A DNA stretch of 10,000 nt from assembly GCA_020216655.1 (NCBI GenBank), contig JAIWNU010000111.1, positions 1 through 10,000 of the forward strand. The letters are read 5' to 3'. The notes under the pieces are model-generated. The model did not search any database. It was not told the DNA's origin and was given only the letters and a program-made list of their open reading frames with translations. Positions 1 to 9,718 of the stretch are shown one piece after another. The stretch is from Treponema sp. (GTDB taxonomy: Bacteria; Spirochaetota; Spirochaetia; Treponematales; Breznakiellaceae). The position numbers were made by a program, and so were the translations under genes. How positions within the stretch are numbered: the stretch's first letter is position 1; each line of letters starts with the position of its first letter.

Positions 1-23
1 CTCGATATAAACCATCTTCTCAT
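1..23 (-). CDS. 5' end of a gene running off the left edge
   Basis: Only the first seven codons are visible: ATG at 23-21, reading MRRWFIS and then leaving the window. A start is supported by a clean GGAGG ribosome binding site (complement of 29-33) five bases upstream. A sigma-54 promoter (64-80) and a predicted start of transcription near 53-54 lie further upstream. The Arg-Arg-Trp-Phe beginning could be the start of a signal peptide or a membrane segment, but seven residues cannot decide that. An alternative ATG further upstream is in a frame that stops after five codons. The product cannot be recognised. Confidence 0.5.
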
Positions 24-63: not shown

Positions 64-80
64 AGCAAAAACCATGCCAA
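64..80 (-). promoter_or_regulatory. Sigma-54 (-24/-12) promoter of the left partial gene
   Basis: On the minus strand this reads TTGGCATGGTTTTTGCT. The GG (complement of 77-78) and GC (complement of 65-66) are separated by exactly 10 bases. The match to the RpoN consensus TGGCACG-N4-TTGCW is good, with T for C at one position. The predicted transcription start is near 53, giving a leader of about 30 bases to the ATG at 23. No convincing sigma-70 pair is seen nearby. Confidence 0.65.
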
Positions 81-250
81 AGAAAGCAGCAAGCAGTTGA
101 AATATAAAATCATTTATATATTGTTATATTATAAAAATATAAATTTAATAGAATGGAGAAAATTAGTATTTTGATGAGGTTTTTAGTGCTTGTATTGTCT
201 CTGATTCGACATTTCAGGCGATAACAACCGAATTATTCGACAATAATGTG
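81..250. other. AT-rich intergenic stretch with no gene recognised
   Basis: The stretch is very AT-rich between about 95 and 170. The only reading frame of note is a 23-codon hydrophobic one on the plus strand at 153-224, with no ribosome binding site. Two direct copies of ATTCGACA (204-211 and 235-242) lie 31 bases apart, upstream of the minus-strand sigma-54 promoter. Nothing else is supported. Confidence 0.4.
204..243 (-). promoter_or_regulatory. Candidate upstream activator sites (ATTCGACA repeats)
   Basis: ATTCGACA occurs at 204-211 and 235-242, a spacing of 31 bases or close to three helical turns. The two copies lie about 126 and 157 bases upstream of the GG of the sigma-54 promoter at 64-80, the usual distance for enhancer-binding activators. 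A longer version (204-218) matches 1462-1476, upstream of the lipoprotein gene, at 13 of 15 positions. The role is inference from position and repetition. Confidence 0.3.
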
Positions 251-290
251 GAAATAAAAAGACTGCCTGCAAAAGACACCCTGCAGGCAG
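251..290 (-). terminator. Rho-independent terminator of the lipoprotein gene
   Basis: A perfect 9-bp stem pairs 263-271 (CTGCCTGCA) with 282-290 (TGCAGGCAG) around a ten-base loop. Read on the minus strand it is followed by a T-rich tract (complement of 251-262, TCTTTTTATTTC). It begins about 26 bases past the lipoprotein stop codon, so it should end that transcript. Confidence 0.8.
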
Positions 291-315
291 CACAACTCGC
301 ACAAAAAAGGCTTTG

Positions 316-1287
316 TTATTCGGTTAGGTCAAAAGTAACAGGAGAGCCGTTGGGAACAAAGAGCGTAGCCCGGCTGCGGACCTGTTTAGGGCTCCGATCT
401 CCCGAAGCATTATTAATAGTATAGCTGTATACCGTTACAGTTTTCGCAACAAGTTTCCCCAATTCATCTTTCCAGTTCTCAAAATACAAGGCAGAAACTT
501 CCTTTCCGCTGACTGTTGGAACCTCCGTATAATAGCGGACACCTTCTAACGTAAGATCTACATTATTTCCCAGATAGTAAGAAAGTCCGATCTGCTGGGT
601 CTTTACTTCCTGGGTGTAGGTTACCTTGGAACTGTAGGTTGCAGACAAACTTGTATTTGGCGTGTAAGATGTTGCTTGCAAAACCGCGCTAAGGTCCACA
701 CTAGCGAAGGAAGCATATTTTAATGAGCCATTATGAGTTGTTGTATCTACAATCACTTCCTGCCGTAGACTTGGAATTGTTCGTATTTTTTCATAATTCA
801 ATAAACTAAAGTTTGTTTCAAACCGGGCGCGGTAGAGATCATTAGTGTTCCCATTTTGATCACAAACCGGATCGGCGTTGGTCAGCTTTCCGTCTCCACC
901 ATCTTTCAGGTAATAGTCTTCCCTGGTGTATTCCCGGTTGCTTCCTATCCGGTACTTCGTTTCAGTTTGTACAAAGTAGACCCCGCTCCCTTTATTGGTC
1001 ACTGTATACGTCGTGGCCTGTCCCAATTCAGGATAATCGGGCAAGGAACCGTTTAAGGAAGCACCAACAGTAATACTTATAGAACTCACGCTCAATTCTG
1101 CATTGTTAAAAAAGCTCGAATCATATATAGGCAGTGTCGCCTTGCTCAGGGTGTTCACTTCGTTCTCCGCCACCGCGGACATAAGAAGCATGTCTTTGAC
1201 CGCCGCTTCATAGTCCGGACTGTCCCACAGGGTGCAGGAAAGCAAGCCCGCGAGCACCACAGATCCTAATAGTAAATTTCGTTTCAT
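316..1287 (-). CDS. Exported lipoprotein of unknown function
   Basis: A 323-residue protein with a classic bacterial lipoprotein signal. It has MKRN, a hydrophobic stretch at residues 5-16, then the lipobox Leu-Leu-Ser-Cys with the lipidated Cys at position 18. The mature part is rich in Ser, Thr, Tyr and Asn and has alternating patterns that suggest beta-strands, with no further membrane segment. Residues 129-139 (DGGDGKLTNAD) resemble the second half of a calcium-binding loop of the EF-hand or dockerin type, but the first ligand positions do not fit. I do not recognise the family. The start is supported by GGAGG at complement 1295-1299, seven bases from the ATG. A near-consensus sigma-54 promoter lies at 1346-1362 and a hairpin terminator follows the stop. 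It is a stand-alone transcription unit, divergent from the thiamin operon. A role at the cell envelope is inferred only from the signal. Confidence 0.85.
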   Translation of the reverse strand: MKRNLLLGSVVLAGLLSCTLWDSPDYEAAVKDMLLMSAVAENEVNTLSKATLPIYDSSFFNNAELSVSSISITVGASLNGSLPDYPELGQATTYTVTNKGSGVYFVQTETKYRIGSNREYTREDYYLKDGGDGKLTNADPVCDQNGNTNDLYRARFETNFSLLNYEKIRTIPSLRQEVIVDTTTHNGSLKYASFASVDLSAVLQATSYTPNTSLSATYSSKVTYTQEVKTQQIGLSYYLGNNVDLTLEGVRYYTEVPTVSGKEVSALYFENWKDELGKLVAKTVTVYSYTINNASGDRSPKQVRSRATLFVPNGSPVTFDLTE

Positions 1288-1299
1288 ATCCTATCCTCC

Positions 1300-1315
1300 A
1301 ACCATTACCATGGTT
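1300..1315 (-). promoter_or_regulatory. Inverted repeat next to the lipoprotein ribosome binding site
   Basis: AACCAT (1300-1305) and ATGGTT (1310-1315) form a 6-bp inverted repeat with a four-base loop. It directly abuts the GGAGG at complement 1295-1299. The same AACCAT/ATGGTT half-sites make up the hairpin ahead of the left partial gene (36-54). This may be a shared leader element or chance in an AT-rich leader. Confidence 0.3.
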
Positions 1316-1345
1316 ATATTTCACATCAATATACGAAATAACTTA

Positions 1346-1362
1346 TGCAAATATCGTGCCAA
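1346..1362 (-). promoter_or_regulatory. Sigma-54 (-24/-12) promoter of the lipoprotein gene
   Basis: The minus strand reads TTGGCACGATATTTGCA, an exact match to the RpoN core consensus TGGCACG-N4-TTGCA. GG (complement 1359-1360) and GC (complement 1347-1348) are separated by 10 bases. The predicted start of transcription is near 1335, giving a leader of about 48 bases to the ATG at 1287. This is the best of the three such promoters in the window. Confidence 0.85.
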
Positions 1363-1461
1363 ACTATCTAGTATAACACCACTTATAATATAATACTTAT
1401 TTCATACTATGCAAACACTTGCGAAACCTGAAATAAAAAACATAAGCAGGAGCAATGCATA

Positions 1462-1476
1462 ATTCGACATAACAGG
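1462..1476 (-). promoter_or_regulatory. Candidate upstream activator site of the lipoprotein promoter
   Basis: ATTCGACATAACAGG here matches ATTCGACATTTCAGG at 204-218 in 13 of 15 bases. It lies about 102 bases upstream of the GG of the lipoprotein sigma-54 promoter, a normal distance for an enhancer-binding protein. A degraded second copy (TTCGTC, about 1494-1499) sits roughly 31 bases away, echoing the spacing at 204/235. The function is inferred. Confidence 0.25.
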
Positions 1477-1522
1477 CTAAATCATGCAAATTTTTCGTCT
1501 ATTTTGGCAAACTTAAGCACCA

Positions 1523-1551
1523 TTGACATTTCATTCAAACCTGTCTACACT
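1523..1551 (+). promoter_or_regulatory. Sigma-70-type promoter of the thiamin operon
   Basis: A perfect -35 TTGACA (1523-1528), a 17-base spacer and a -10 TACACT (1546-1551). Transcription should start near 1558, exactly at the first helix of the TPP riboswitch, so the whole leader would be the aptamer plus expression platform. Confidence 0.75.
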
Positions 1552-1554
1552 ATG

Positions 1555-1640
1555 ACCCGTCGTGGGGTGGCCTTTGAGGCCTGAGATTATACCCGTTGAA
1601 CCTGATCTGGGTAATGCCAGCGAAGGGAGACTGACGCATC
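1555..1640 (+). ncRNA. TPP riboswitch (THI element)
   Basis: The conserved aptamer core is present in order. P1 pairs CGTC (1558-1561) with GACG (1633-1636). GGGGTG (1564-1569) follows. A short P2 is closed by GGCC (1569-1572 with 1578-1581), then the invariant CTGAGA (1581-1586). P4 pairs ACCCG (1591-1595) with the GGG near 1625-1627. The CCTGATCTGG and TAATGCCAGCG blocks form the pyrophosphate-side arm (1601-1622). No P3a insertion is present, so it is a compact version. It precedes a YkoE-type transporter by about 60 bases, which fits repression of thiamin or precursor uptake when TPP is plentiful. The off state could be transcriptional, since GTGGGG (1562-1567) can pair with CCCCAC (1652-1657) shortly before six T residues (1663-1668). 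It could also be translational, through the ribosome binding site at 1688-1693. The sequence does not settle this. Confidence 0.95.
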
Positions 1641-1698
1641 TCAACACCATTCCCCACAGCCATTTTTTCGTACCGGTATAGACCGGGAAGGAGCTATT

Positions 1699-2304
1699 AT
1701 GGCTGGGAACAACAAGCTGTTTTCCTGGAAATTGAACGAAGTCGTGGTCCTGGCGGTGCTTTCTATTGCCATTGGTGTCCTCTTTTGGGCCTGGACCTTC
1801 ATTGCAGCCCTTGCGAAGCCCCTGTCGGCTATCGGATTGGACTACCTTTTGGCAGGGGTCTGGTTTATCGGGGGAACCCTGGTAGCCTTTATTATCCGCC
1901 GGCCAGGGGCAGCCCTGCTCGGAGAAGTCCTTGCGGCAATACTCGAAGGCTTTATAACCCAATGGGGCATAACCGCCGCCATCTGGGGCCTTGTGCAGGG
2001 CCTCGGGGCAGAGGCGGTCTTTGCTGCCACGAGGTACAAAAAATGGAACCTCCCGGTCATGCTCGCAGCGGCCTTAGGTTCATCAATCTTTTCATATATT
2101 CTGGACTTCTTTTACAGCCAGTACTGGACCTTGCAGCCCTGGGTCTGGCCTATTCAAATCATCTCTGTGTCTGCCGGCGGCCTTTTCTGGGCAGGCTGGC
2201 TTGCCTACCGCATCGGCCGCGGCATTATCCGCACCGGTGTGGCATCGAACCTGCGCTGCGCTGATGACCTGATTCGGGAAGAAACTGCTGAGAACCAGGA
2301 ATAG
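1699..2304 (+). CDS. ykoE: ECF transporter S component, YkoE type (thiamin/HMP)
   Basis: A 201-residue integral membrane protein, the substrate-specific subunit of an energy-coupling factor importer for thiamin or its hydroxymethylpyrimidine precursor. Hydrophobic segments at about residues 12-34, 45-65, 72-86, 93-110, 118-138 and 150-170 give the six-helix S-component plan. The block RRPGAALLGEV (67-77) with the following Glu83 and the Gln-Trp-Gly near 88-90 is the YkoE-family signature as I recall it. The start is fixed by AAGGAG (1688-1693) five bases before the ATG. The gene is directly downstream of a TPP riboswitch and followed by a double ATPase and a T component in the Bacillus ykoEDC order. 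That context makes the substrate assignment strong, although thiamin and its precursor cannot be told apart from sequence. The C-terminal tail (about 180-201) is charged and cytoplasmic. Confidence 0.93.
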   Translation: MAGNNKLFSWKLNEVVVLAVLSIAIGVLFWAWTFIAALAKPLSAIGLDYLLAGVWFIGGTLVAFIIRRPGAALLGEVLAAILEGFITQWGITAAIWGLVQGLGAEAVFAATRYKKWNLPVMLAAALGSSIFSYILDFFYSQYWTLQPWVWPIQIISVSAGGLFWAGWLAYRIGRGIIRTGVASNLRCADDLIREETAENQE

Positions 2305-2326
2305 GAACTCGGCTGATCACGTTATT

Positions 2327-3748
2327 ATGGAAGAAATCCGGCTGGAAGGGGCTTCCTTCCGTTTCCCCGGCAGGGCAAAACCCTTGCTGCGGGACATAAA
2401 CCTCGTCATTCACCGGGGAGATCGGGTGCTGCTCCATGGACCTTCCGGGAGCGGCAAATCGACCCTTCTCGCGATTCTCGCAGGCCTCGTGCCAGATCAT
2501 GTGGGTGGGGAACTTACGGGTACTATCAGGCTGTCCTACACCCGCAAAGCCCTGGTTTTGCAGAATCCGGAAGCCCAGGTGATTACTCCGACCGTGGAAG
2601 AAGAGCTTGCCTTTCCGCTGGAAAACCGAGCCATGCCGGCTGAAGAGATGGGTCCCCGAATTACCGCGATACTGGAACGTTTTGGTATGGCAGCCCTCCG
2701 CTGCCGCAATCCCCTTGAGCTTTCCGGGGGCGAATGTCAGCGGCTCTCCCTCGCGGCGGCCCTTATTCAGGAACCAGATATTCTATTTCTTGATGAGCCT
2801 ACTTCCTATTTGGACGAAGCCCGCTCCCAAGAGCTATTCCGGGATCTGGAAAGCTTACCGCCCCAGGTGACGGTGGTGCTGGTGGAGCACCGACTTGAGC
2901 TTGTAGAACATTTTTGCAAGCGCTGGATTTGCATTGATGGGGGAACAATCTCGGAACAGGCTTCCTGGGATGAGGTTCTTGCCTGTACACCGAGTTTGGA
3001 ACTGCCGGAAACAGCCCCAAGCGCAGATGGAGGTGCTTCTGACGCGGCCACAGCAGAGAAAGGACTTGATAGCAGTGCTGGGCCATCCCAGCCGCTGCTA
3101 GAAATTCGAAGCCTGAGCCACCGATACGGCCCGCCCGGCGCGCCACCAATCCTGCACAACCTATCGCTTAGCATCGAGCCGGGGACCATTACGGCCATAA
3201 TGGGAGCCAGCGGGAGCGGCAAAACAACGCTCCTAAAAAAAATAATCCGGCTCCTCCCAGTAGAACAAAATACGGTTTTTCTGTACGGCCGGGATATAAC
3301 AAGCATGGCCTCCAAAGAATATTATCAGCATATTGCCTATATTCCCCAAAACCCGGAACACCTGTTTCTGGAAGACACGGTAAAAGCTGAGCTCGCCCAT
3401 GGAGCTCACAACGCCGAAGAAGCCCTCCGCCTCGCTCGCCTCTTTTCGCTGGAACACCGGCTTAAAGCCCATCCCTTTAAATTGAGCGAAGGGGAAAAGC
3501 GGCGGCTCACCCTCTGTATCGCCCTCAGCATGGGTCGGGAATTCATCATTATGGATGAACCGACCTACGGACTTGACCGGGAAGCGCGGCACCGCCTTGC
3601 ATCCTACCTATCCATGCCCGAATTATCCGGAACAAGCATACTCCTGGTAAGTCACGACAGCCTCTTTGTCAACGCACTGGCAGAACGGGCAAACCGAAAC
3701 ACTAAGATCCTCTGGCTCTCGGAAGGTCAATTTAAGGAGGCAGATTGA
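2327..3748 (+). CDS. ykoD: ECF transporter double ATPase, YkoD type
   Basis: A 473-residue fusion of two ABC ATPase domains that powers the ECF importer from the cytoplasmic side. Domain 1 (about 1-220) has Walker A GPSGSGKST (38-46), Q-loop QNPEAQ (79-84), signature LSGGE (132-136), Walker B ILFLDEP (152-158) and switch His188. Domain 2 (about 255-473) has Walker A GASGSGKTT (293-301), Q-loop QNPEH (341-345), signature LSEGE (386-390), Walker B FIIMDEP (406-412) and His443. All catalytic residues are present in both halves, so both sites look active. The linker 222-256 is Ala/Ser/Pro-rich. QNPE in both Q-loops is typical of ECF ATPases. The gene begins 22 bases after ykoE. No clear ribosome binding site precedes its ATG, which suggests translational dependence on the upstream gene. 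It ends in TGATG, overlapping the ykoC start. Confidence 0.95.
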   Translation: MEEIRLEGASFRFPGRAKPLLRDINLVIHRGDRVLLHGPSGSGKSTLLAILAGLVPDHVGGELTGTIRLSYTRKALVLQNPEAQVITPTVEEELAFPLENRAMPAEEMGPRITAILERFGMAALRCRNPLELSGGECQRLSLAAALIQEPDILFLDEPTSYLDEARSQELFRDLESLPPQVTVVLVEHRLELVEHFCKRWICIDGGTISEQASWDEVLACTPSLELPETAPSADGGASDAATAEKGLDSSAGPSQPLLEIRSLSHRYGPPGAPPILHNLSLSIEPGTITAIMGASGSGKTTLLKKIIRLLPVEQNTVFLYGRDITSMASKEYYQHIAYIPQNPEHLFLEDTVKAELAHGAHNAEEALRLARLFSLEHRLKAHPFKLSEGEKRRLTLCIALSMGREFIIMDEPTYGLDREARHRLASYLSMPELSGTSILLVSHDSLFVNALAERANRNTKILWLSEGQFKEAD

Positions 3749-4545
3749 TGAACGTCCCGCATATGGAACATTCACCCTGTGCCGATTCAGTACTCATGAC
3801 CCCGCAGGGCAGGAAAAAAGTCGCCTGGCAGCCCAATCCGCTTGCGCTGCTTCTGGCTCAAGTCTTTTTCATGATCCCGGTTCTTTTTGCCATGGACCGC
3901 ATGACCCCCCTGGTTTTTTTGGCAGCGGGGCTCATCAACCTGTTTGGCATCGCAGGCCTTTCGCTCCGCCGGTTCATCAAGTTGGTACTACCTCTCTCCA
4001 CCCTGTCATTCGGGCTTTTTTTTATGAACCTGCTATTCCCCGCAGAGGGAATTAACGGCCTTGAACGGGCGATTGCGGTGTTCCTGCGGAGCTTTGCGCT
4101 CATCAGCCTTTCTTCTGGCTACATTCTTTCGGTGAGTCCCTATGACATAATCCGGGCCCTCATGCAAAACTGGGGATTAAATTATCGCTTAGGGTTTTCT
4201 CTTTTTGCAGGCTGGAATACTATCCCTCTCTTAAAACGGGATATAGAACTTGCCCAAAAAGCACAGGAGATCCGGTCTGCCAGCGCGGTCCGGGCAAAAA
4301 AAGGAGGGATTTCCCGCCTTACAAGGCTTCCCGTTACCATTCTGTCAGGGGCCATCCTGCACGGGGAGCGGCTCAGCCTTTCCATGGCCGGCCGCGGACT
4401 GGAAGAAACAGGGGAACGAACTTTTTTTCACAGGGTCCCGTGGACCGGTAAAGATAGTCTATATGTTGCGGGCATAGGACTCGCTGCACTGCTCGTTTGG
4501 CTGGCGCTTATACGATTGGGGATCTTTGTTTTTGAATTAGGATAA
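3748..4545 (+). CDS. ykoC: ECF transporter T component, YkoC type
   Basis: A 265-residue membrane protein that couples the ATPases to the S component. Hydrophobic segments run at about 32-50, 53-70, 77-97, 106-127 and 236-260. Between them are the two cytoplasmic coupling motifs of T components, here AQEIRSA (172-178) and SMAGRGL (212-218). The second retains the Arg-Gly pair. The first has Arg-Ser where Arg-Gly is usual, a mild departure. I chose ATG 3748 over an in-frame TTG one codon upstream, because it shares the TGATG overlap with the ykoD stop and sits seven bases after AAGGAGG (3734-3740). The N-terminal 30 residues are hydrophilic and longer than I expect for the family. It completes the ECF complex with the two genes upstream. 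Confidence 0.92.
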   Translation: MNVPHMEHSPCADSVLMTPQGRKKVAWQPNPLALLLAQVFFMIPVLFAMDRMTPLVFLAAGLINLFGIAGLSLRRFIKLVLPLSTLSFGLFFMNLLFPAEGINGLERAIAVFLRSFALISLSSGYILSVSPYDIIRALMQNWGLNYRLGFSLFAGWNTIPLLKRDIELAQKAQEIRSASAVRAKKGGISRLTRLPVTILSGAILHGERLSLSMAGRGLEETGERTFFHRVPWTGKDSLYVAGIGLAALLVWLALIRLGIFVFELG

Positions 4546-4550
4546 GCTGA

Positions 4551-4575
4551 ATAGTGCCAACACAGTGGACACTAT
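4551..4575. terminator. Possible two-way hairpin between convergent genes
   Basis: A 9-bp stem with one bulged A pairs 4551-4559 with 4566-4575 around ACACAG. It lies just past the ykoC stop and overlaps the stop of the minus-strand cysteine gene. Neither side has a run of T, so termination by this hairpin alone is uncertain. It is placed where convergent transcription must be resolved. Confidence 0.3.
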
Positions 4576-4787
4576 CCGGCGATAATGGCGAAGGCCTTGT
4601 CTTTTTCGCTGGGGAGCACATTCTTGGGCATTTTGTCCGTCCCCAAACTGGAGGCAATCATATAAAGAGCACAATGGAGGTTGTTGCCGCGGCAGTAGCT
4701 ATTTTTAACTTCCTCCGCGTTGGAACCCATGTTTTCACTCTGGTTGTTGTAAAAAGGACACTGGTTTGCAAATTCGCATTCTGTCAT
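4572..4787 (-). CDS. Small four-cysteine protein, family not named
   Basis: A 71-residue soluble protein with four Cys at positions 4, 10, 32 and 39 (C-x5-C and C-x6-C), within ECEFANQCPFY and YCRGNNLHCALY. The rest is a likely helix (39-49) and a charged C-terminal part containing PKNVLP and EKDKAF. Paired cysteines suggest a zinc or iron-sulfur site, or disulfides. There is no signal peptide, so a cytoplasmic metal site is the better guess. The gene is convincing despite its size. It has AAGGA (complement 4796-4800) eight bases before an ATG and an orderly cysteine pattern. No better gene fits this otherwise empty 326-base gap. I recall similar short proteins with CPFF/Y and a later C-A-R/L-Y block in spirochaetes and other anaerobes, but I cannot name the family. 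It lies opposite in strand between the ECF genes and the thiamin-binding protein gene. Confidence 0.75.
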   Translation of the reverse strand: MTECEFANQCPFYNNQSENMGSNAEEVKNSYCRGNNLHCALYMIASSLGTDKMPKNVLPSEKDKAFAIIAG

Positions 4788-4860
4788 AACTTGGATCCTT
4801 AGCTTATCTATTGCAGTGATGATATTTTTATCTGGCTCCGCAGGGACCAGAACTTATATG

Positions 4861-4866
4861 AAGGAG
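4861..4866 (+). promoter_or_regulatory. Ribosome binding site deciding the 4872 start
   Basis: AAGGAG lies five bases before ATG 4872. An in-frame GTG at 4866 overlaps this site and so cannot be the start it serves. This sets the thiamin-binding protein at 108 residues. Confidence 0.8.
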
Positions 4867-4871
4867 TGTAT

Positions 4872-5198
4872 ATGAAAATTGATGTTGATGCTATCCCCTC
4901 GGCCATGGCCATTCAGTGCCTTCCCATGGGGCTTGGAACGAAAGCGGAAACCTATGCGGTGGTGGACAGTGTGATTAAACTTATCGAAGAATCGGGGCTC
5001 TCCTATGAGGTGGGCCCCTTCGAAACCGTGGTAGAAGGCCCCCTCCCCCGTTTGCTTGAGCTGGCAGGCCAGATGCACCGCCGCATGCTGGAATCGGGAA
5101 TTAACACTGCAGCAAGCTACATAAAACTGTGGAGCGGTACTGACCTGGGAAGCAGCGAAGAAAAGGTCGGCAAATACCGGAAAAATGCATCAAGTTAA
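4872..5198 (+). CDS. Thiamin-binding protein, MTH1187/YkoF-like
   Basis: A 108-residue cytoplasmic protein of the MTH1187/YkoF-like thiamin-binding superfamily (ferredoxin-like fold). It starts with the strand MKIDVDAIP. A Gly-Leu-Gly turn and helix follow (about 20-41), then the hallmark VGPFETVVEG (47-56) near the usual ligand site. A second helix (about 59-76) and a closing strand ASYIKLW (81-87) complete the fold. It has one domain of about 95-100 residues, whereas Bacillus YkoF has two, so it probably works as an oligomer of single domains. It lies on the same strand as ykoEDC but is separated from it by the antisense cysteine gene. It may be transcribed by read-through or from an unseen promoter in 4788-4871. 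A role in handling thiamin or its precursor beside the importer follows from family and context. Direct transport is not implied. Confidence 0.88.
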   Translation: MKIDVDAIPSAMAIQCLPMGLGTKAETYAVVDSVIKLIEESGLSYEVGPFETVVEGPLPRLLELAGQMHRRMLESGINTAASYIKLWSGTDLGSSEEKVGKYRKNASS

Positions 5199-5214
5199 AA
5201 TACAGCTTCTATGC

Positions 5215-5243
5215 TTGACTTTTAAGAAGGATAAGGATAGGAT
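5215..5243 (+). promoter_or_regulatory. Sigma-70-type promoter of the partner-switch operon
   Basis: TTGACT (5215-5220), a 17-base spacer, and TAGGAT (5238-5243). Transcription should start near 5250, giving an AT-rich leader of about 37 bases with AAAGGG (5275-5280) ahead of ATG 5287. No terminator is visible between the thiamin-binding gene and this promoter, so some read-through is possible. Confidence 0.6.
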
Positions 5244-5286
5244 ATGTCAATATTTAACATTTTAGATTTTTTATAAAGGGAAACGC

Positions 5287-5757
5287 ATGGAAATTAATGA
5301 TTCAATGGGTTTTATTGAAATTAAATTCGGTCCGCGTTGGAAGTACATCGCAGTAGTGCGAGCCTTTATTCAAAACTTTATAGCCGTCAGTTATTCAGAT
5401 AATATTCGGGCAGACAAAATTGCCATGGCTGCAAGTGAGCTCCTGGAAAATGCAGTAAAATACGCTCAAGGGGAAGAAACGATTGTAAAACTGCAATTAT
5501 TACCAGAAAAAGAATCTATCATGGTTTCCGTCTCCAATAGGGCTAGTCCAGAAGCGATTAAGGGACTACAAGAGATTTGGAATAAGGTCATGCAGGGAGA
5601 TCCCTTACAATCCTATATTGCACAGATGCAGCTTGCAGCAACAAGGAATGACTCTAAGAGCCAATTAGGGCTCGTGAGAATACGATATGAAACGGGAGCA
5701 GAAATGAAGCTTGATATTCAAGGAGACTTGGTAACCATTACACTTATTCAAGCTTAA
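5287..5757 (+). CDS. GHKL ATPase, anti-sigma/RsbW-like regulator
   Basis: A 156-residue soluble protein with the fold of partner-switch kinases such as RsbW and SpoIIAB. The N-box is clear: ASELLENAVKYA (49-60) supplies the base Glu51 and the magnesium ligand Asn55. The region where the G1 box should be reads VSVSNRASPEA (80-90). It has Asn84 where the usual Asp of D-x-G sits and lacks the glycines. A later KSQLGLVRI (124-132) may serve as the G2 lid. The missing G1 Asp makes ordinary ATP use doubtful, so the protein may bind a partner without phosphorylating it. From memory it is closer to the SiaB/slr1658 branch than to true RsbW, but this was not checked. It is the first gene of an operon with a STAS protein and a SpoIIE phosphatase, the expected substrates and antagonists. 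Confidence 0.82.
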   Translation: MEINDSMGFIEIKFGPRWKYIAVVRAFIQNFIAVSYSDNIRADKIAMAASELLENAVKYAQGEETIVKLQLLPEKESIMVSVSNRASPEAIKGLQEIWNKVMQGDPLQSYIAQMQLAATRNDSKSQLGLVRIRYETGAEMKLDIQGDLVTITLIQA

Positions 5758-5804
5758 ATTGATGATATCGTTTACTAAAATATACTTTATTGGCGAGGAT
5801 ACCT

Positions 5805-6185
5805 ATGAATAAACTAAGCATTGATTCAATTAAACAAGATAAAGTAACCATTGATGTCCAAGATATTTCAGATGGAATCAAAGTAGTTGTTTCCGGAGAT
5901 ATTGATATGCAGGATCCAAGTACCCTGCTCGATCCCCTGTTCGACAAGGTCCACAACGGGGCTGTTTCTTCTGGAATAAAAACAGTTGAACTGGATGTAA
6001 CAAATCTAACCTTTTTGAATTCCAGCGGCATTAAAGCAATCGCAAAATGGATTATGAAGCTGGCCACCGTAGACGCGAGTAAAAAATATCTCATAAAAAT
6101 TATTCAAAATAAGGCGATTGCGTGGCAGGCGACCAGCCTTCAGACATTGACATTCTTAGTGCCCGGAAGTGTTAATGTCGTCTGA
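5805..6185 (+). CDS. STAS-domain protein, anti-sigma antagonist-like
   Basis: A 126-residue protein with one STAS domain, the phosphorylatable member of partner-switching systems. The core has the strand IKVVVSGDIDM (25-35) and the loop and helix TFLNSSGIKAIAKW (69-82). In SpoIIAA and RsbV the phosphorylated Ser follows an Asp (DSSG or DSTG). Here the Asp is Asn72, followed by Ser73-Ser74-Gly75, so Ser73 or Ser74 is the likely site. The N-terminal 20 residues precede the usual fold, and the protein is a little longer than SpoIIAA. I prefer ATG 5805 to an in-frame TTG at 5790, because GAGGA (5795-5799) is five bases before 5805 and overlaps the longer version. It follows the ATPase gene by 47 bases and overlaps the next start by 11, which implies coupled translation. 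From memory it resembles the slr1659-type regulators that accompany slr1658-type ATPases. Confidence 0.85.
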   Translation: MNKLSIDSIKQDKVTIDVQDISDGIKVVVSGDIDMQDPSTLLDPLFDKVHNGAVSSGIKTVELDVTNLTFLNSSGIKAIAKWIMKLATVDASKKYLIKIIQNKAIAWQATSLQTLTFLVPGSVNVV

Positions 6186-6987
6186 ACTCACAAATGACAG
6201 GATACGAAACATACTTGTATCCTGCCAAAAGATTTGTAATCACATTCTTGAACAATACGATGAAGATGCTGAGCGCATAGCTATCATCTCTCAATTACAG
6301 GGAGAGCTTAATCATCTCGGTTCCTTAAGTAAGCAAATCCTTGATAATGCTCAGCAAATATATGGAATTTCGGAAAATCTCTCTGGTTCAGCAGAAAATG
6401 GATTTAATCTTTCACAGCAAGTACAGTCAAGAGTTGCGGCTCTGGCAGAAATTATAAAAACCTCTTATGAAGATACCAACCGATTGCAGAACCAGTCAGA
6501 AAAGATTAATGAAATTCTTAATATTATGTCCGAAATTTCCTCCACCACAAATGTACTTTCCATTAACGCATCTATAGTTGCTGCCCGCTATGGTGCCAAG
6601 GGCAGGGAATTTGATGTGGTTGCTCGAGAAATTAGAAAGCTTTCCGAAGGCACTGAAAAATCCTTAAAGGATATAACAACATTAGTCAATGATATAAAAA
6701 ACTCGATAACCTCTGTCAGTTCAAAACTACAAAAAGTAAACCAGGAAATATTAAATCAGAACGAATCTATTTTAGCTGTGGCCGGAGCTTTGCAAGGAGT
6801 CACGCTTGCAGTGGAAGTTATCCGCTCGGTAACCACTATTTCCAAAGAAACCGCAGAAGCAGAGATAGGTACTTTTAAAACCATAGAAGAAGCGCTCGCA
6901 AAATTAGCAAGCTGTACTTCTGTTCAGCTATCCAAAGAAAGCATTGAACAACTACACCAGGATCTTGGTGTTGTTTTAGATCAATAG
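6175..6987 (+). CDS. Soluble MCP-like coiled-coil signalling protein
   Basis: A 270-residue, largely helical protein with no signal peptide or membrane segment. The centre (about 105-175) is recognisably the hairpin tip of a methyl-accepting chemotaxis protein: TTNVLSINASIVAAR (124-138), then KGREFDVVAREIRKLSEGT (142-160). Flanking heptad-rich helices run about 40-105 and 165-215. Asn126, Asn131 and Arg138 are kept. Several residues that matter in Tsr are changed: Ser123 for Phe373, Val135 for Glu385 and Ala141 for Glu391 (Tsr numbering from memory). The protein therefore probably does not join an ordinary CheA/CheW array. No ligand domain is visible; residues 1-45 are helical with two Cys (18 and 21). 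ATG 6175 is favoured over GTG 6169, with GGAAG just upstream. It overlaps the STAS gene and precedes the SpoIIE gene, so it likely serves this switch. Confidence 0.8.
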   Translation: MSSELTNDRIRNILVSCQKICNHILEQYDEDAERIAIISQLQGELNHLGSLSKQILDNAQQIYGISENLSGSAENGFNLSQQVQSRVAALAEIIKTSYEDTNRLQNQSEKINEILNIMSEISSTTNVLSINASIVAARYGAKGREFDVVAREIRKLSEGTEKSLKDITTLVNDIKNSITSVSSKLQKVNQEILNQNESILAVAGALQGVTLAVEVIRSVTTISKETAEAEIGTFKTIEEALAKLASCTSVQLSKESIEQLHQDLGVVLDQ

Positions 6988-7005
6988 TTTTGCAAGGAGG
7001 CTCCA

Positions 7006-9060
7006 ATGCTGCAAATCTTCTCATTATCTTTCTGGTTTATCATAGCCTTTACAATTCCCCTTTGGCTGAGTGCGAACTCAAGGAAAGAATATGGAGATCG
7101 TCCGTTCTGGCTTTTAATATCACTGATTCTTTTTACTATTAACGGCAGCTTGGTAAGTATCTATAATTTAAACTTGATTGCTCCTGCAAACCCTTTATAC
7201 ATTTTATTGATCCTAGCACCTCAGGCACTATATCCGGTTATCTTAACGATCACTGAGTATTCAATTCATAGCCAACGGATTCAGAACAATCTTTTACAAG
7301 CAGAATTCAATTCCCGGCTGCGAGTTATTTGGATTATAGCCGCTGGCATTATAGCTTCCCTTATATTAGGATTTTTATATTATAATAGCCAAATATTCCT
7401 AATATCAGAAATATTATTAGCTGTTTCCATATTCTTTCTTTATTTTTATAATTTTAGCCTTTTCAGCTTTGAAGAGGGAATTATACGCTTTAGTAAGATT
7501 CCTTTCATATTGGGAATGTCATTTTCGATTCTTGCGGTGTTTCTGAATCAATCTTCGTATAGTCAAATTGGTTCGTTTATTTTAACCTTACTTAATCTTA
7601 TATATGCGGCAAGAGTATTTCATGAATATTTTTGGTACAGGATGGAACATTTCAACCAGGTACATGTTCAGCACAAACAAAGAGAAAAAAACAGAACTCT
7701 TTTAATCAATGAGATCTTAGCTGCTTCCGCAGCAGATGAAGAGGCTATTATTAAGAATGTACTAGAGCAATATCTAACCCAAATGCAGAATTCATTAGCA
7801 AATCCCAATGTAAGATTTAAATCCATGATGCTTTATTCTACAAAGGCGCAAACACTCAGAGTTGATTCTGATAATTTTATTATTGGATATTGTATGCCGC
7901 TCATGAATATTGAGACATTAAAACGAATGAACAAGGATGCAGCCCATACTCTCATTAAAGAGAAAACGTTTAATATCGCATCCATTTTAAATATGGAGAA
8001 TGAACCAGAATCTTTCCCAGAAAATGCCATTTATCAAATGCTAAAAAAGCATGAGATGTTTATTTTAGACAATCCTCCTGTTCATTTAGCTTCTATATTT
8101 AAACTAATTGTATTTTATCCTCTCTACAATCAGAATGAATTGATAGGCATGCTGGTCTTATTCAAGGAAGGAGCCAGCTATGTATTTCCTAAAGAAAAAT
8201 CTATTCTCAATAACTTGACAGATGAATTGTCTATTGCATTAACATTACAAAATGCAAAAAGAATACAGGAAGATAAGAACCGTCTGAGCCAGGAAATGGA
8301 CGTAGCACGCAATATCCAAGTCTCTGTTTTACCCCGTTCGGTTTTTATAGATGGTTATGAATGTGCTACTACAATGAAGACTGCTACAGAAGTTGGCGGA
8401 GATGTTTACGATTTTATTGGTTTGAAAAAGAATAATTACCTCGCAATAGGTGATGTCTCAGGTCATGGGCTGCCAGCGGGACTCATGGCCCTTATTTTCC
8501 TTTCAGCACTCCATGGCAGCATTAAGACTTTAGAAGAATTAGGTACTGATCTTCCGGTTTCTAAAATATATGACATCATAAATAAGGTTTTAGTAGAAAT
8601 AAACCGCAACCGGATTGGCAGCGATAAATTTATGACCGGTAATATCCTTACAGAACAAAATGGGAATTTCACCTATGCAGGCTCCCACCTTATAGGTCTG
8701 GTATACCGTGCAGATACAAAAGATGTTGAAGAAATTACCGGGATGATCGACCGAGCTGCATTCCTTGGACTTTCAGAATATGCTCAATCTTCCCAATCGC
8801 TCGGTTCATTTACTTTACAAAGCGGGGATATACTGCTCCTGTATACAGATGGTCTTATCGAAGCACGGGACCGGCATGATAAGCTATTCGGTTTAGAGAA
8901 TTTAAAAAGGGTACTCAAAATGAAAGCCGAAGAATCGCCAGAAGAGATCCAGCGTGAATTGCTTAACCAAGTAGCCGCATTCGCTGAACAAGGGGATTTA
9001 CGGAAATATCAGGGAAACTTTGCTGATGATATAAGTATGATTATCCTTAAAAAGAAATAA
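7006..9060 (+). CDS. Membrane SpoIIE/RsbU-type Ser phosphatase, 7TM-GAF-PP2C
   Basis: A 684-residue sensor phosphatase expected to dephosphorylate the STAS protein encoded upstream. The N-terminal third has seven hydrophobic segments (about 3-22, 33-53, 61-83, 107-126, 130-150, 164-183 and 187-206), like the seven-helix input domain of some histidine kinases. Residues about 230-415 look like a divergent GAF domain. A coiled coil (412-440) with the LSQEMDVARNIQVSVLP linker follows. The PP2C/SpoIIE domain carries EVGGDVYDF (462-470), IGDVSGHGLPAG (481-492), YTDGLIEARD (613-622) and DDISM (674-678). The metal-binding Asp residues 466, 483, 615 and 674/675 are intact, so it should be active. AAGGAGG (6994-7000) lies five bases before the ATG, and the gene begins 18 bases after the MCP-like gene. 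It is the last gene of the operon, followed by a strong hairpin. Confidence 0.95.
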   Translation: MLQIFSLSFWFIIAFTIPLWLSANSRKEYGDRPFWLLISLILFTINGSLVSIYNLNLIAPANPLYILLILAPQALYPVILTITEYSIHSQRIQNNLLQAEFNSRLRVIWIIAAGIIASLILGFLYYNSQIFLISEILLAVSIFFLYFYNFSLFSFEEGIIRFSKIPFILGMSFSILAVFLNQSSYSQIGSFILTLLNLIYAARVFHEYFWYRMEHFNQVHVQHKQREKNRTLLINEILAASAADEEAIIKNVLEQYLTQMQNSLANPNVRFKSMMLYSTKAQTLRVDSDNFIIGYCMPLMNIETLKRMNKDAAHTLIKEKTFNIASILNMENEPESFPENAIYQMLKKHEMFILDNPPVHLASIFKLIVFYPLYNQNELIGMLVLFKEGASYVFPKEKSILNNLTDELSIALTLQNAKRIQEDKNRLSQEMDVARNIQVSVLPRSVFIDGYECATTMKTATEVGGDVYDFIGLKKNNYLAIGDVSGHGLPAGLMALIFLSALHGSIKTLEELGTDLPVSKIYDIINKVLVEINRNRIGSDKFMTGNILTEQNGNFTYAGSHLIGLVYRADTKDVEEITGMIDRAAFLGLSEYAQSSQSLGSFTLQSGDILLLYTDGLIEARDRHDKLFGLENLKRVLKMKAEESPEEIQRELLNQVAAFAEQGDLRKYQGNFADDISMIILKKK

Positions 9061-9080
9061 CACATCAATCAATAACATTG

Positions 9081-9118
9081 AAAAAGGGCTGTTCAGTTTT
9101 ATTCCTGAACAGCCCTTT
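9081..9118. terminator. Bidirectional rho-independent terminator
   Basis: A perfect 14-bp stem pairs 9083-9096 with 9105-9118 around TTTTATTC. On the minus strand it is followed by five T (complement 9081-9085), a textbook terminator for the exported-protein gene ending at 9143. On the plus strand it follows the phosphatase stop by about 20 bases. It ends in TTT and then AAAATTT, so it works less ideally there but is still plausible. Confidence 0.88.
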
Positions 9119-9142
9119 AAAATTTCCGCTCGTTAACGTCGC

Positions 9143-9595
9143 TTACCAGCGTCCGCCTCGACCACCGCGGCCACCAAAGTTACCGTTTGGACCCATATTG
9201 CCCGCAGGCCCCATCATGCCCATACCGCGGCCAAAGCTGTTGGAAAGATCGTAATCCTTGCCGTTAAAGGTCAGCTTGGTTACCCGCAGGTGCAGGTATT
9301 CGGGAGCTCCCGGCAAAGCAACCGCATAGCCTTCCAATTTTACCGCAGCGCCTTCTTTAAGACCGTCGATAAAACCGATGAGCCGGTTAAGGCCGCCTAC
9401 GTAGTAGGTTTTTCCGCCGCTCTGAACGGCGATCATACCGTTAACCAGGGCAAGCTTACCATCCACTTTAACGGTCTGAAGATTCTGGGTCTGCACTGCG
9501 GCAGCGCCAGGGCCAAAGCCAGGACCAAAAGCCTGGGCGGAAAGGGAACCGGCAGCGATGAGGCCGGCAGCGACGATAATCAGAATGCGTTTCAT
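9143..9595 (-). CDS. Small exported protein with Gly/Arg-rich tail
   Basis: A 150-residue protein with a clear Sec signal peptide: MKR, a hydrophobic core at about 4-18, and likely cleavage after SLSA or SAQA near residue 20-22. A Gly/Pro/Phe linker (23-30) leads to a compact beta-rich domain (about 39-118), with TVKVDGKLALVNG, KTYYVGG, AAVKLEGYAV and LHLRVTKLTFNGKDYDL as candidate strands. This may be a small OB-like barrel. The tail (121-150) is repetitive Gly, Met, Asn and Arg, ending in GGRGGRGGRW. There is no lipobox or membrane anchor, so it should be periplasmic or secreted. The function is not recognised. The start is set by AAGGAG (complement 9602-9607) six bases from the ATG. It is a single-gene unit with a sigma-54 promoter (9702-9718), a structured leader and a strong terminator. 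Confidence 0.87.
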   Translation of the reverse strand: MKRILIIVAAGLIAAGSLSAQAFGPGFGPGAAAVQTQNLQTVKVDGKLALVNGMIAVQSGGKTYYVGGLNRLIGFIDGLKEGAAVKLEGYAVALPGAPEYLHLRVTKLTFNGKDYDLSNSFGRGMGMMGPAGNMGPNGNFGGRGGRGGRW

Positions 9596-9654
9596 AGCAT
9601 ACTCCTTATGATCGTTAGTTTGGAGTGCTTAATGCAGCTCCGCGATAATTTCGT

Positions 9655-9692
9655 ATCGGCTTATTGCCGATGTGCCAGCCAACGGCTGACAC
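9655..9692 (-). promoter_or_regulatory. Two tandem hairpins in the leader of the exported-protein gene
   Basis: One stem pairs 9672-9680 with 9684-9692 (one mismatch, loop AAC) and starts at the transcription start predicted from the sigma-54 promoter. A second, perfect 6-bp stem pairs 9655-9660 with 9666-9671 and abuts the first without a gap. About 60 bases then lead to the ribosome binding site. mRNA protection or post-transcriptional control is inferred. Confidence 0.5.
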
Positions 9693-9701
9693 TTATTATA
9701 T

Positions 9702-9718
9702 TGCAAATTCCATGCCAA
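9702..9718 (-). promoter_or_regulatory. Sigma-54 (-24/-12) promoter of the exported-protein gene
   Basis: The minus strand reads TTGGCATGGAATTTGCA. GG (complement 9715-9716) and GC (complement 9703-9704) are 10 bases apart. Only one base of the TGGCACG-N4-TTGCA core differs. The predicted start is near 9691. A TATAAT (complement 9695-9700) lies just downstream but has no suitable -35, so it is not taken as the main promoter. Confidence 0.78.

Follow-up and report, generated by a model that had tools for sequence, protein, structure and literature searches.

Putative sigma-54 promoters of a Gracilinema-type spirochaete suggest an RpoN-to-RpoS cascade older than the Lyme bacteria

The closest described system to the one considered here is the Rrp2-RpoN-RpoS pathway of Borrelia burgdorferi, where RpoN acts directly at rpoS by experiment (PMC3037356). 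Rrp2 is the sole enhancer-binding protein (EBP) of B. burgdorferi, and Leptospira interrogans lacks RpoS (PMC12655853). The origin of the Borrelia protein is disputed, as some authors doubt that BB0771 is a true RpoS and propose a separate duplication (PMC6719511, in which the word Treponema does not occur). Francke et al. 2011 (PMC3162934) describe sigma-54 promoters before lipoprotein or exported-protein genes and before nitrogen genes and mention sigma-S control in Borrelia; the words Spirochaet-, Treponema and Leptospira are absent from the main text. According to the same article, experimental evidence for a link between sigma-54 and rpoH had not yet been reported in 2011. Among the papers listed in searches of an open library, no title or abstract opening reported an RpoN-driven sigma factor in treponemes or across the spirochaetes. 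Here we analyze a stretch of 10,000 nucleotides (the window, contig C123) from a Treponema sp. assembly (GCA_020216655.1; 2.66 Mb, 251 contigs, 89.6% complete), which carries three -24/-12 elements. Taking these together with the sites before two sigma-factor genes of the same genome, here called P1 and P2, we consider it very probable that they are sigma-54 promoters of a Gracilinema-type spirochaete, that they belong to a conserved regulon including P1 and P2, and that this regulon contains an RpoN-RpoS cascade inherited from an ancestral circuit.

All three elements in the window match the pattern TGGCAYG-N4-TTGCW with GG-N10-GC exactly. They lie on the minus strand at 64..80 (TTGGCATGGTTTTTGCT, read 80-64) before a lipoprotein gene at the left edge, at 1346..1362 (TTGGCACGATATTTGCA, 1362-1346) before the gene of a lipoprotein of 323 amino acids (aa), and at 9702..9718 (TTGGCATGGAATTTGCA, 9718-9702) before the gene of a Gly-rich exported protein. 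Positions, strand and spacing had been given correctly by a first-pass annotation of this DNA. It had also placed each site a few tens of bases before a start codon, which is right for the distances of 40 and 58 bp; the third site lies farther away, at 106 bp. The three genes are not the unlinked single units that it described, since the first two are adjacent paralogues on one strand. Its view that exported proteins are the targets is borne out in the window: all three sites precede genes for exported proteins or lipoproteins, the left-edge gene apparently encoding a lipoprotein too, as judged from its 654-aa orthologue in G131, a genome of the same genus. There (L128) both lipoprotein genes occur in the same order, each with an exact site: the same 16-mer stands before the left-edge orthologue, and the site of the 323-aa gene is at the same place. 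For the Gly-rich gene, 21 of 30 fetched loci, the window included, have a site with at most one mismatch in the upstream 220 bp, against 1 of 30 for the reversed pattern. No exact site occurs on the plus strand of the window. With the window's own dinucleotide frequencies about 0.007 exact sites are expected per 10 kb on both strands, giving P(>=3) = 6e-8; if the 8 exact sites elsewhere in the genome are taken as the measure of density instead, P(>=3) is still 4e-6. We take the three elements, which are well above chance, to be real sigma-54-type promoter sequences and, judged by sequence conservation, members of a conserved spirochaete sigma-54 regulon.

Genome-wide the exact pattern occurs 11 times and its reversal, which served as control for the site counts, not once; with up to one mismatch the numbers are 61 and 16. 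The motif is not equally frequent inside genes and before them, as nine of the 11 exact sites stand 30-106 bp before a start codon. Outside the window these well-placed sites precede the genes of hsp20 (151 aa), an exported Ig-repeat protein (1554 aa, Pfam Big_7, cut by the contig end), P1, P2, a 197-aa protein without Pfam match that appears by eye to be a membrane protein, and glutamine synthetase III. Sites with one mismatch precede, among others, an ammonium transporter, an MCP-domain protein and a SHOCT protein. In three other genomes of the genus the exact sites stand mostly before the same kinds of genes, and in addition before TusA, peroxiredoxin, ferritin/Dps-like and Fe-S protein genes. 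The machinery supposed by the first-pass annotation is present. We found one rpoN, followed by a gene that we take to be hpf-like, and eight full EBPs, of which five carry receiver domains and three GAF domains; this count leaves aside six further, weaker hits to the activator domain. Two conditions that the first-pass annotation had named as refuting its reading, a genome lacking rpoN and a motif just as common within genes, do not apply. Among 44 genomes examined, 43 have rpoN and the single miss is an 81%-complete assembly. In G291, a Borrelia-type genome, the rpoN match (C1:472400-472828) holds several stops, either a broken gene or an assembly error; its rpoS site is exact. Two EBP genes offer leads to signals: one (G000:C235, L092) is about 3 kb from a presumably PspA-like gene, pointing to envelope stress, and another (C17, L096) is one gene away from what we take to be an acetate-kinase-like gene, pointing to acetyl-phosphate signalling.

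P1 (294 aa) and P2 (281 aa) are sigma-70-family sigma factors, each preceded by an exact site, at P2 35 bp before the start. Among named records, those nearest to P2 are Gracilinema caldarium bin74 (99%) and Treponema sp. (92%). All 30 fetched P1 loci of the family, this genome included, have a site with no more than one mismatch (control 0). Outside the family but within the class Spirochaetia, 12 of 13 P1-type genes have a site at 0-2 mismatches; the remaining one, L381, has 3. The P2 loci are the best 80 in the named collection. Among these, 62 are spirochaete-titled and all 60 of them with upstream sequence carry the site (57 at <=1 and 3 at 2 mismatches; control 0/60); it was also found at one of the 17 loci of other titles with upstream sequence (L195, titled "bacterium", 61% identity to P2). 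At L285 and L305, sites with 1 and 0 mismatches were seen in a 220-bp scan; they are masked by the choice of start in the wider sigma-factor scan. Four Borrelia-type genomes with assemblies of 0.9-1.2 Mb, which we take to be Borreliaceae, have two sigma-70-type matches to P2 each, one of them at 809-821 kb. Their rpoS has the site 56-64 bp upstream with 0-1 mismatch in 4/4 genomes; this known RpoN target is recovered by the same scan. The P2 genes of family f3 (Treponema-type) have it at 0-1 mismatch in 5/5. As a control, the region upstream of the first ATG of the open frame was scanned at 14 rpoD loci, which represent 13 distinct genes; the best matches there have 3-6 mismatches. E. coli rpoH has a site with one mismatch, and at E. 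coli rpoS none was found in the same scan. A genome of 1.14 Mb (G013), presumably the size of that of T. pallidum, holds a single P1-type gene, whose start lies 40 bp downstream of an exact site.

Phylogeny and gene order make it most probable that P2 and the Borrelia RpoS are orthologues. We built a quick tree of 106 sequences (10 of the 30 P1 loci, 20 P2 and 8 other of the 80 loci, P2 of this genome (L309) and 67 of the 76 loci L311-L386), leaving out 7 of 14 RpoD rows as well as L337 and L367 (start mis-set). A careful tree with 79 of these sequences places P2 and the Borrelia-type RpoS in one clade with 100/99 support (ultrafast bootstrap, UFboot/Shimodaira-Hasegawa-like approximate likelihood ratio test, SH-aLRT), and E. 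coli RpoS in another clade. Gene order was scanned at 189 sigma-factor loci, P2, P1, RpoD and other types together. At 62 of them tsaD follows P2 on the same strand, with a gene in between, which we take to be polysaccharide-deacetylase-like, in 52 cases and without it in 10. At all four Borrelia-type loci tsaD (54-55% identity) follows about 925 bp after the sigma gene, and the middle gene matches too. This neighbourhood was found at none of the 30 P1 loci. Among the best 80 loci, tsaD follows P2 in 44 of 62 spirochaete-titled ones, versus 1 of 18 with other titles (L195).

Like B. burgdorferi, the present genome has a sigma-54 site directly before an apparently orthologous sigma-70-family gene in the same tsaD neighbourhood. 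Unlike B. burgdorferi, it has two sigma-factor genes with such sites, eight EBPs in place of one, and two lipoprotein genes with sigma-54 sites of their own. The groups of target genes known from Francke et al. recur here, and sigma-factor, hsp20 and enhancer-motif groups are found beyond them. E. coli rpoH resembles P1 and P2 in having a sigma-54 site before a sigma-70-family gene; RpoH sits on a very long branch, so its placement in the trees is unsure. The model of the proteobacterial RpoS (NCBIfam TIGR02394) is the best NCBIfam model for P2 and the fourth for P1, yet both score below its cut-off of 378.7 bits (P2 256.7, P1 262.2).

The upstream regions differ in candidate enhancer motifs. 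TGTCGAA occurs on the minus strand at 205..211 and 236..242, that is, at -132 and -163 from the left-edge promoter (-133 and -163 in G131), and at 1463..1469, at -108 from the promoter of the 323-aa lipoprotein gene (-107 in G131). It is present in 6 of 43 upstream regions of four genomes, the motif having been derived by inspecting across the genus the same regions in which it was later counted; each of the six precedes a lipoprotein or exported-protein gene and the other 37 regions are without it. Besides the lipoprotein pair, G127 has it at -125 before a gene for an exported Ig-repeat protein and G012 at -107 before a lipoprotein gene; the Ig-repeat genes in this genome and in G131 are without it. 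The background of TGTCGAA is 7 occurrences in 133.8 kb of this genome on both strands. A wider form is close to TCGCCNNAAWTGTCGAAT. At a distance of 96-126 bp before an exact site, TGTCGAA was found in 4/4 genomes of Gracilinema, at 6 places, and in 1 of the 114 remaining genomes of the family (control 0). Since those 6 places are the sites already used, the independent part of this result is the rarity elsewhere. Comparison of the upstream regions of the Gly-rich gene revealed neither TGTCGAA nor another conserved enhancer motif. A different sequence, TGTWTCATWWWGAC, is common to P1 (3/3 genomes) and hsp20 (4/4) at -143 to -167, and a palindrome, TGTCTACAATTGTAGACA, stands at about -110 before the gene of the 197-aa membrane protein in this genome and G131 and is degenerate in G127 and G012. 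With at least three kinds of upstream motif, several EBP-specific sub-regulons are likelier than one regulon, and we suggest that the targets are divided in this way.

It might be argued that the three motifs match by chance, or that RpoN binds them without starting transcription, and that ordinary sigma-70 promoters drive the genes. Intragenic binding of sigma-54 has been reported for E. coli (PMC4591121), two of the 11 exact sites in the genome probably serve no gene as promoter (one, on C215, is antisense within a long frame, and the other, at the end of C129, resembles a sequence about 207 bp before 16S rRNA genes in a relative), and our assignment of promoters is a prediction from sequence. 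Given the count of 11 against 0 for the reversed pattern, the low probability of three exact sites in 10 kb and the fact that sites are kept before orthologues while the flanking DNA has diverged, we regard this explanation as highly improbable. The first-pass annotation had suggested a regulon directed at envelope or exported proteins. That all three window genes are exported would suit one coherent envelope regulon, as would the restriction of TGTCGAA, among the promoters examined, to lipoprotein and exported-protein genes, and Francke et al. 2011 (PMC3162934) have proposed that sigma-54 controls the exterior of bacteria. Yet just four of the nine well-placed exact sites fit this description, the other five preceding the genes of two sigma factors, hsp20, the membrane protein and glutamine synthetase III, and the upstream motifs differ, with the Gly-rich gene lacking TGTCGAA. 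A single envelope regulon is therefore improbable in our view.

A further possibility is that RpoN control of P2 arose independently in Borrelia and in other spirochaetes, or that Borrelia obtained rpoS from proteobacteria. A published neighbour-joining tree groups the Borrelia RpoS with diverse bacteria including proteobacteria (PMC6719511), and in our tree its branch is long (1.46). In the approximately unbiased (AU) test, a grouping of the Borrelia RpoS with just the RpoS of E. coli is rejected only narrowly (p = 0.039) and one with a wider RpoS-like set is not rejected (p = 0.093), and the tree contains few non-spirochaete outgroups; taken by itself, the tree is thus only partly decisive on the orthology. 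Moreover, 39 of the 53 spirochaete-titled P2 loci with at least 1700 nt downstream have the tsaD neighbourhood and 14 do not, and tsaD was seen within 1.3-1.5 kb downstream at only one of five f3 P2 loci. The neighbourhood therefore appears to be widespread but lost or rearranged in some lineages. These points weigh against common descent of the cascade, and others weigh against our interpretation more generally. Four of four P1-like genes from classes other than Spirochaetia lack the site, as does one P1-like gene in family f11, and three f3/f8 sites (L369, L370 and L374) read TAG for TGG in the -24 element, L369 and L374 being counted among the 12 P1-type genes with a site. In G013 the exact sites number 2 and the reversed control 3, so here the site is judged by its position, and its P1 is placed on a long branch. 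The names Borrelia- and Treponema-type are our assumption from genome size, gene position and gene content. TGTCGAA was found by inspecting the very regions it is counted in, the pairing of EBPs with motifs is a proposal, and every step from site to transcription is deduced from sequence. Nevertheless, an independent origin or a transfer from proteobacteria would have to account for the strongly supported clade, for rpoS being followed by the middle gene and tsaD at 4/4 Borrelia-type loci, for the contrast between spirochaete-titled and other loci in gene order, and for the site at 60/60 loci; we think it unlikely, and prefer the inheritance of the cascade from an ancestral spirochaete.

The left-edge gene is represented in the window by its start (MRRWFIS..., 1..23, minus strand) and is cut by the contig start. 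Its orthologue in G131 (L128:2829-4793) has a lipobox by eye and a C-terminal LamG/ConA-like domain (Pfam PF13385). A frame for a LamG-type lipoprotein runs off the end of contig C151 (L248) at ...ISSLMIG; it could either continue the left-edge gene or belong to a paralogue. The 323-aa lipoprotein (316..1287, minus strand; lipobox LLSC by eye) is a paralogue with about 30% identity to the N-terminal part of the left-edge family. Searches of Pfam and NCBIfam gave no match for it, and it is matched in 3 of 68 family genomes, this one included (G131 is outside the sample). Head to head with the lipoprotein promoter region lies a leader with a thiamine pyrophosphate (TPP) riboswitch (Rfam RF00059, 65 bits; 1552-1645, plus strand), followed at 1699-5198 by a thiamine-type ABC transporter with ABC_cobalt permease, double ATPase, CbiQ and thiamine-binding protein.

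The Gly-rich protein (9143..9595, minus strand) has 150 aa, a signal peptide by eye and a Gly/Arg-rich tail; its homologues were found in 55 of the 68 genomes sampled from the family, the present one among them. A model from a 30-sequence alignment (pLDDT 76) predicts a core at about residues 36-113 that resembles OB folds with weak scores; this is a prediction of fold, not of function. At the right the window continues into contig C124, where the frame of the last gene is still open. Between the genes preceded by sigma-54 sites lies a partner-switch-like set (5287-9060, plus strand) with an HATPase_c_2 protein, a STAS-like protein (weak), an MCP-signalling-domain protein in which no membrane part is seen by eye, and a SpoIIE-type phosphatase whose N-terminal part is hydrophobic.

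Some exact sites of the four genomes appear to be of other kinds. At least one in each genome is of the rRNA-leader type (in this genome the C129 site, by sequence likeness only), and some of the remainder look intragenic or part of a dispersed repeat, the relatives being judged by eye. A conserved sequence, TGGCAYGRAAGTTGCTAGC, mimics a sigma-54 site and stands about 207 bp before 16S rRNA in L153 of G012; it was seen at L153:1734 and 7281 and in L007, L130, L134, L144 and L161, and is probably an rRNA leader element. The dispersed element of about 150 bp has nested inverted repeats, GTTCTTTCAAAACTC...GAGTTTTGAAAGAAC and CCAATTTCAAAAGT...ACTTTTGAAATTGG, and contains a near-match to the sigma-54 pattern. 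Copies were seen in L028, L031 and L089 of one genome and, diverged, in L135 of G131; L028, L089 and L135 gave no Rfam match. A hairpin akin to it stands upstream of the Gly-rich promoter in G127.

We suggest that the circuit operates in the following way. RpoN holoenzyme would stay at the sites as a closed complex, to be opened with ATP by an EBP bound 100-165 bp upstream. One EBP reading TGTCGAA could switch the lipoprotein pair, and a different EBP would control the Gly-rich gene, which lacks this motif. P1, P2, hsp20 and the nitrogen genes would be started by the same pool of RpoN. Since sigma-factor genes are among these targets, a signal could take effect both directly, on lipoproteins and chaperone, and indirectly, by way of sigma factors made in a second wave. 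With P2 most probably the orthologue of the Borrelia RpoS, the RpoN-RpoS cascade of the Lyme bacteria is best interpreted as the remaining arm of a circuit inherited from ancestral spirochaetes, and the T. pallidum-sized genome would keep only the P1-type gene with its own sigma-54 site. It is in our opinion likely that the ancestral RpoN circuit started P1, P2, chaperones and surface proteins, that Borrelia kept the P2 arm as RpoS and the T. pallidum-sized genome the P1 arm, and that the genus-specific TGTCGAA put the lipoprotein genes of Gracilinema directly under RpoN.

In summary, our findings suggest that the RpoN-to-RpoS cascade arose long before the Lyme bacteria. To the dispute on the origin of the Borrelia RpoS, the shared clade, the largely shared neighbourhood and the sigma-54 sites give a direct and testable answer. 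If it is true, an RpoN-driven sigma factor is predicted in treponemes, and the cascade would be open to study in harmless free-living spirochaetes from the environment.

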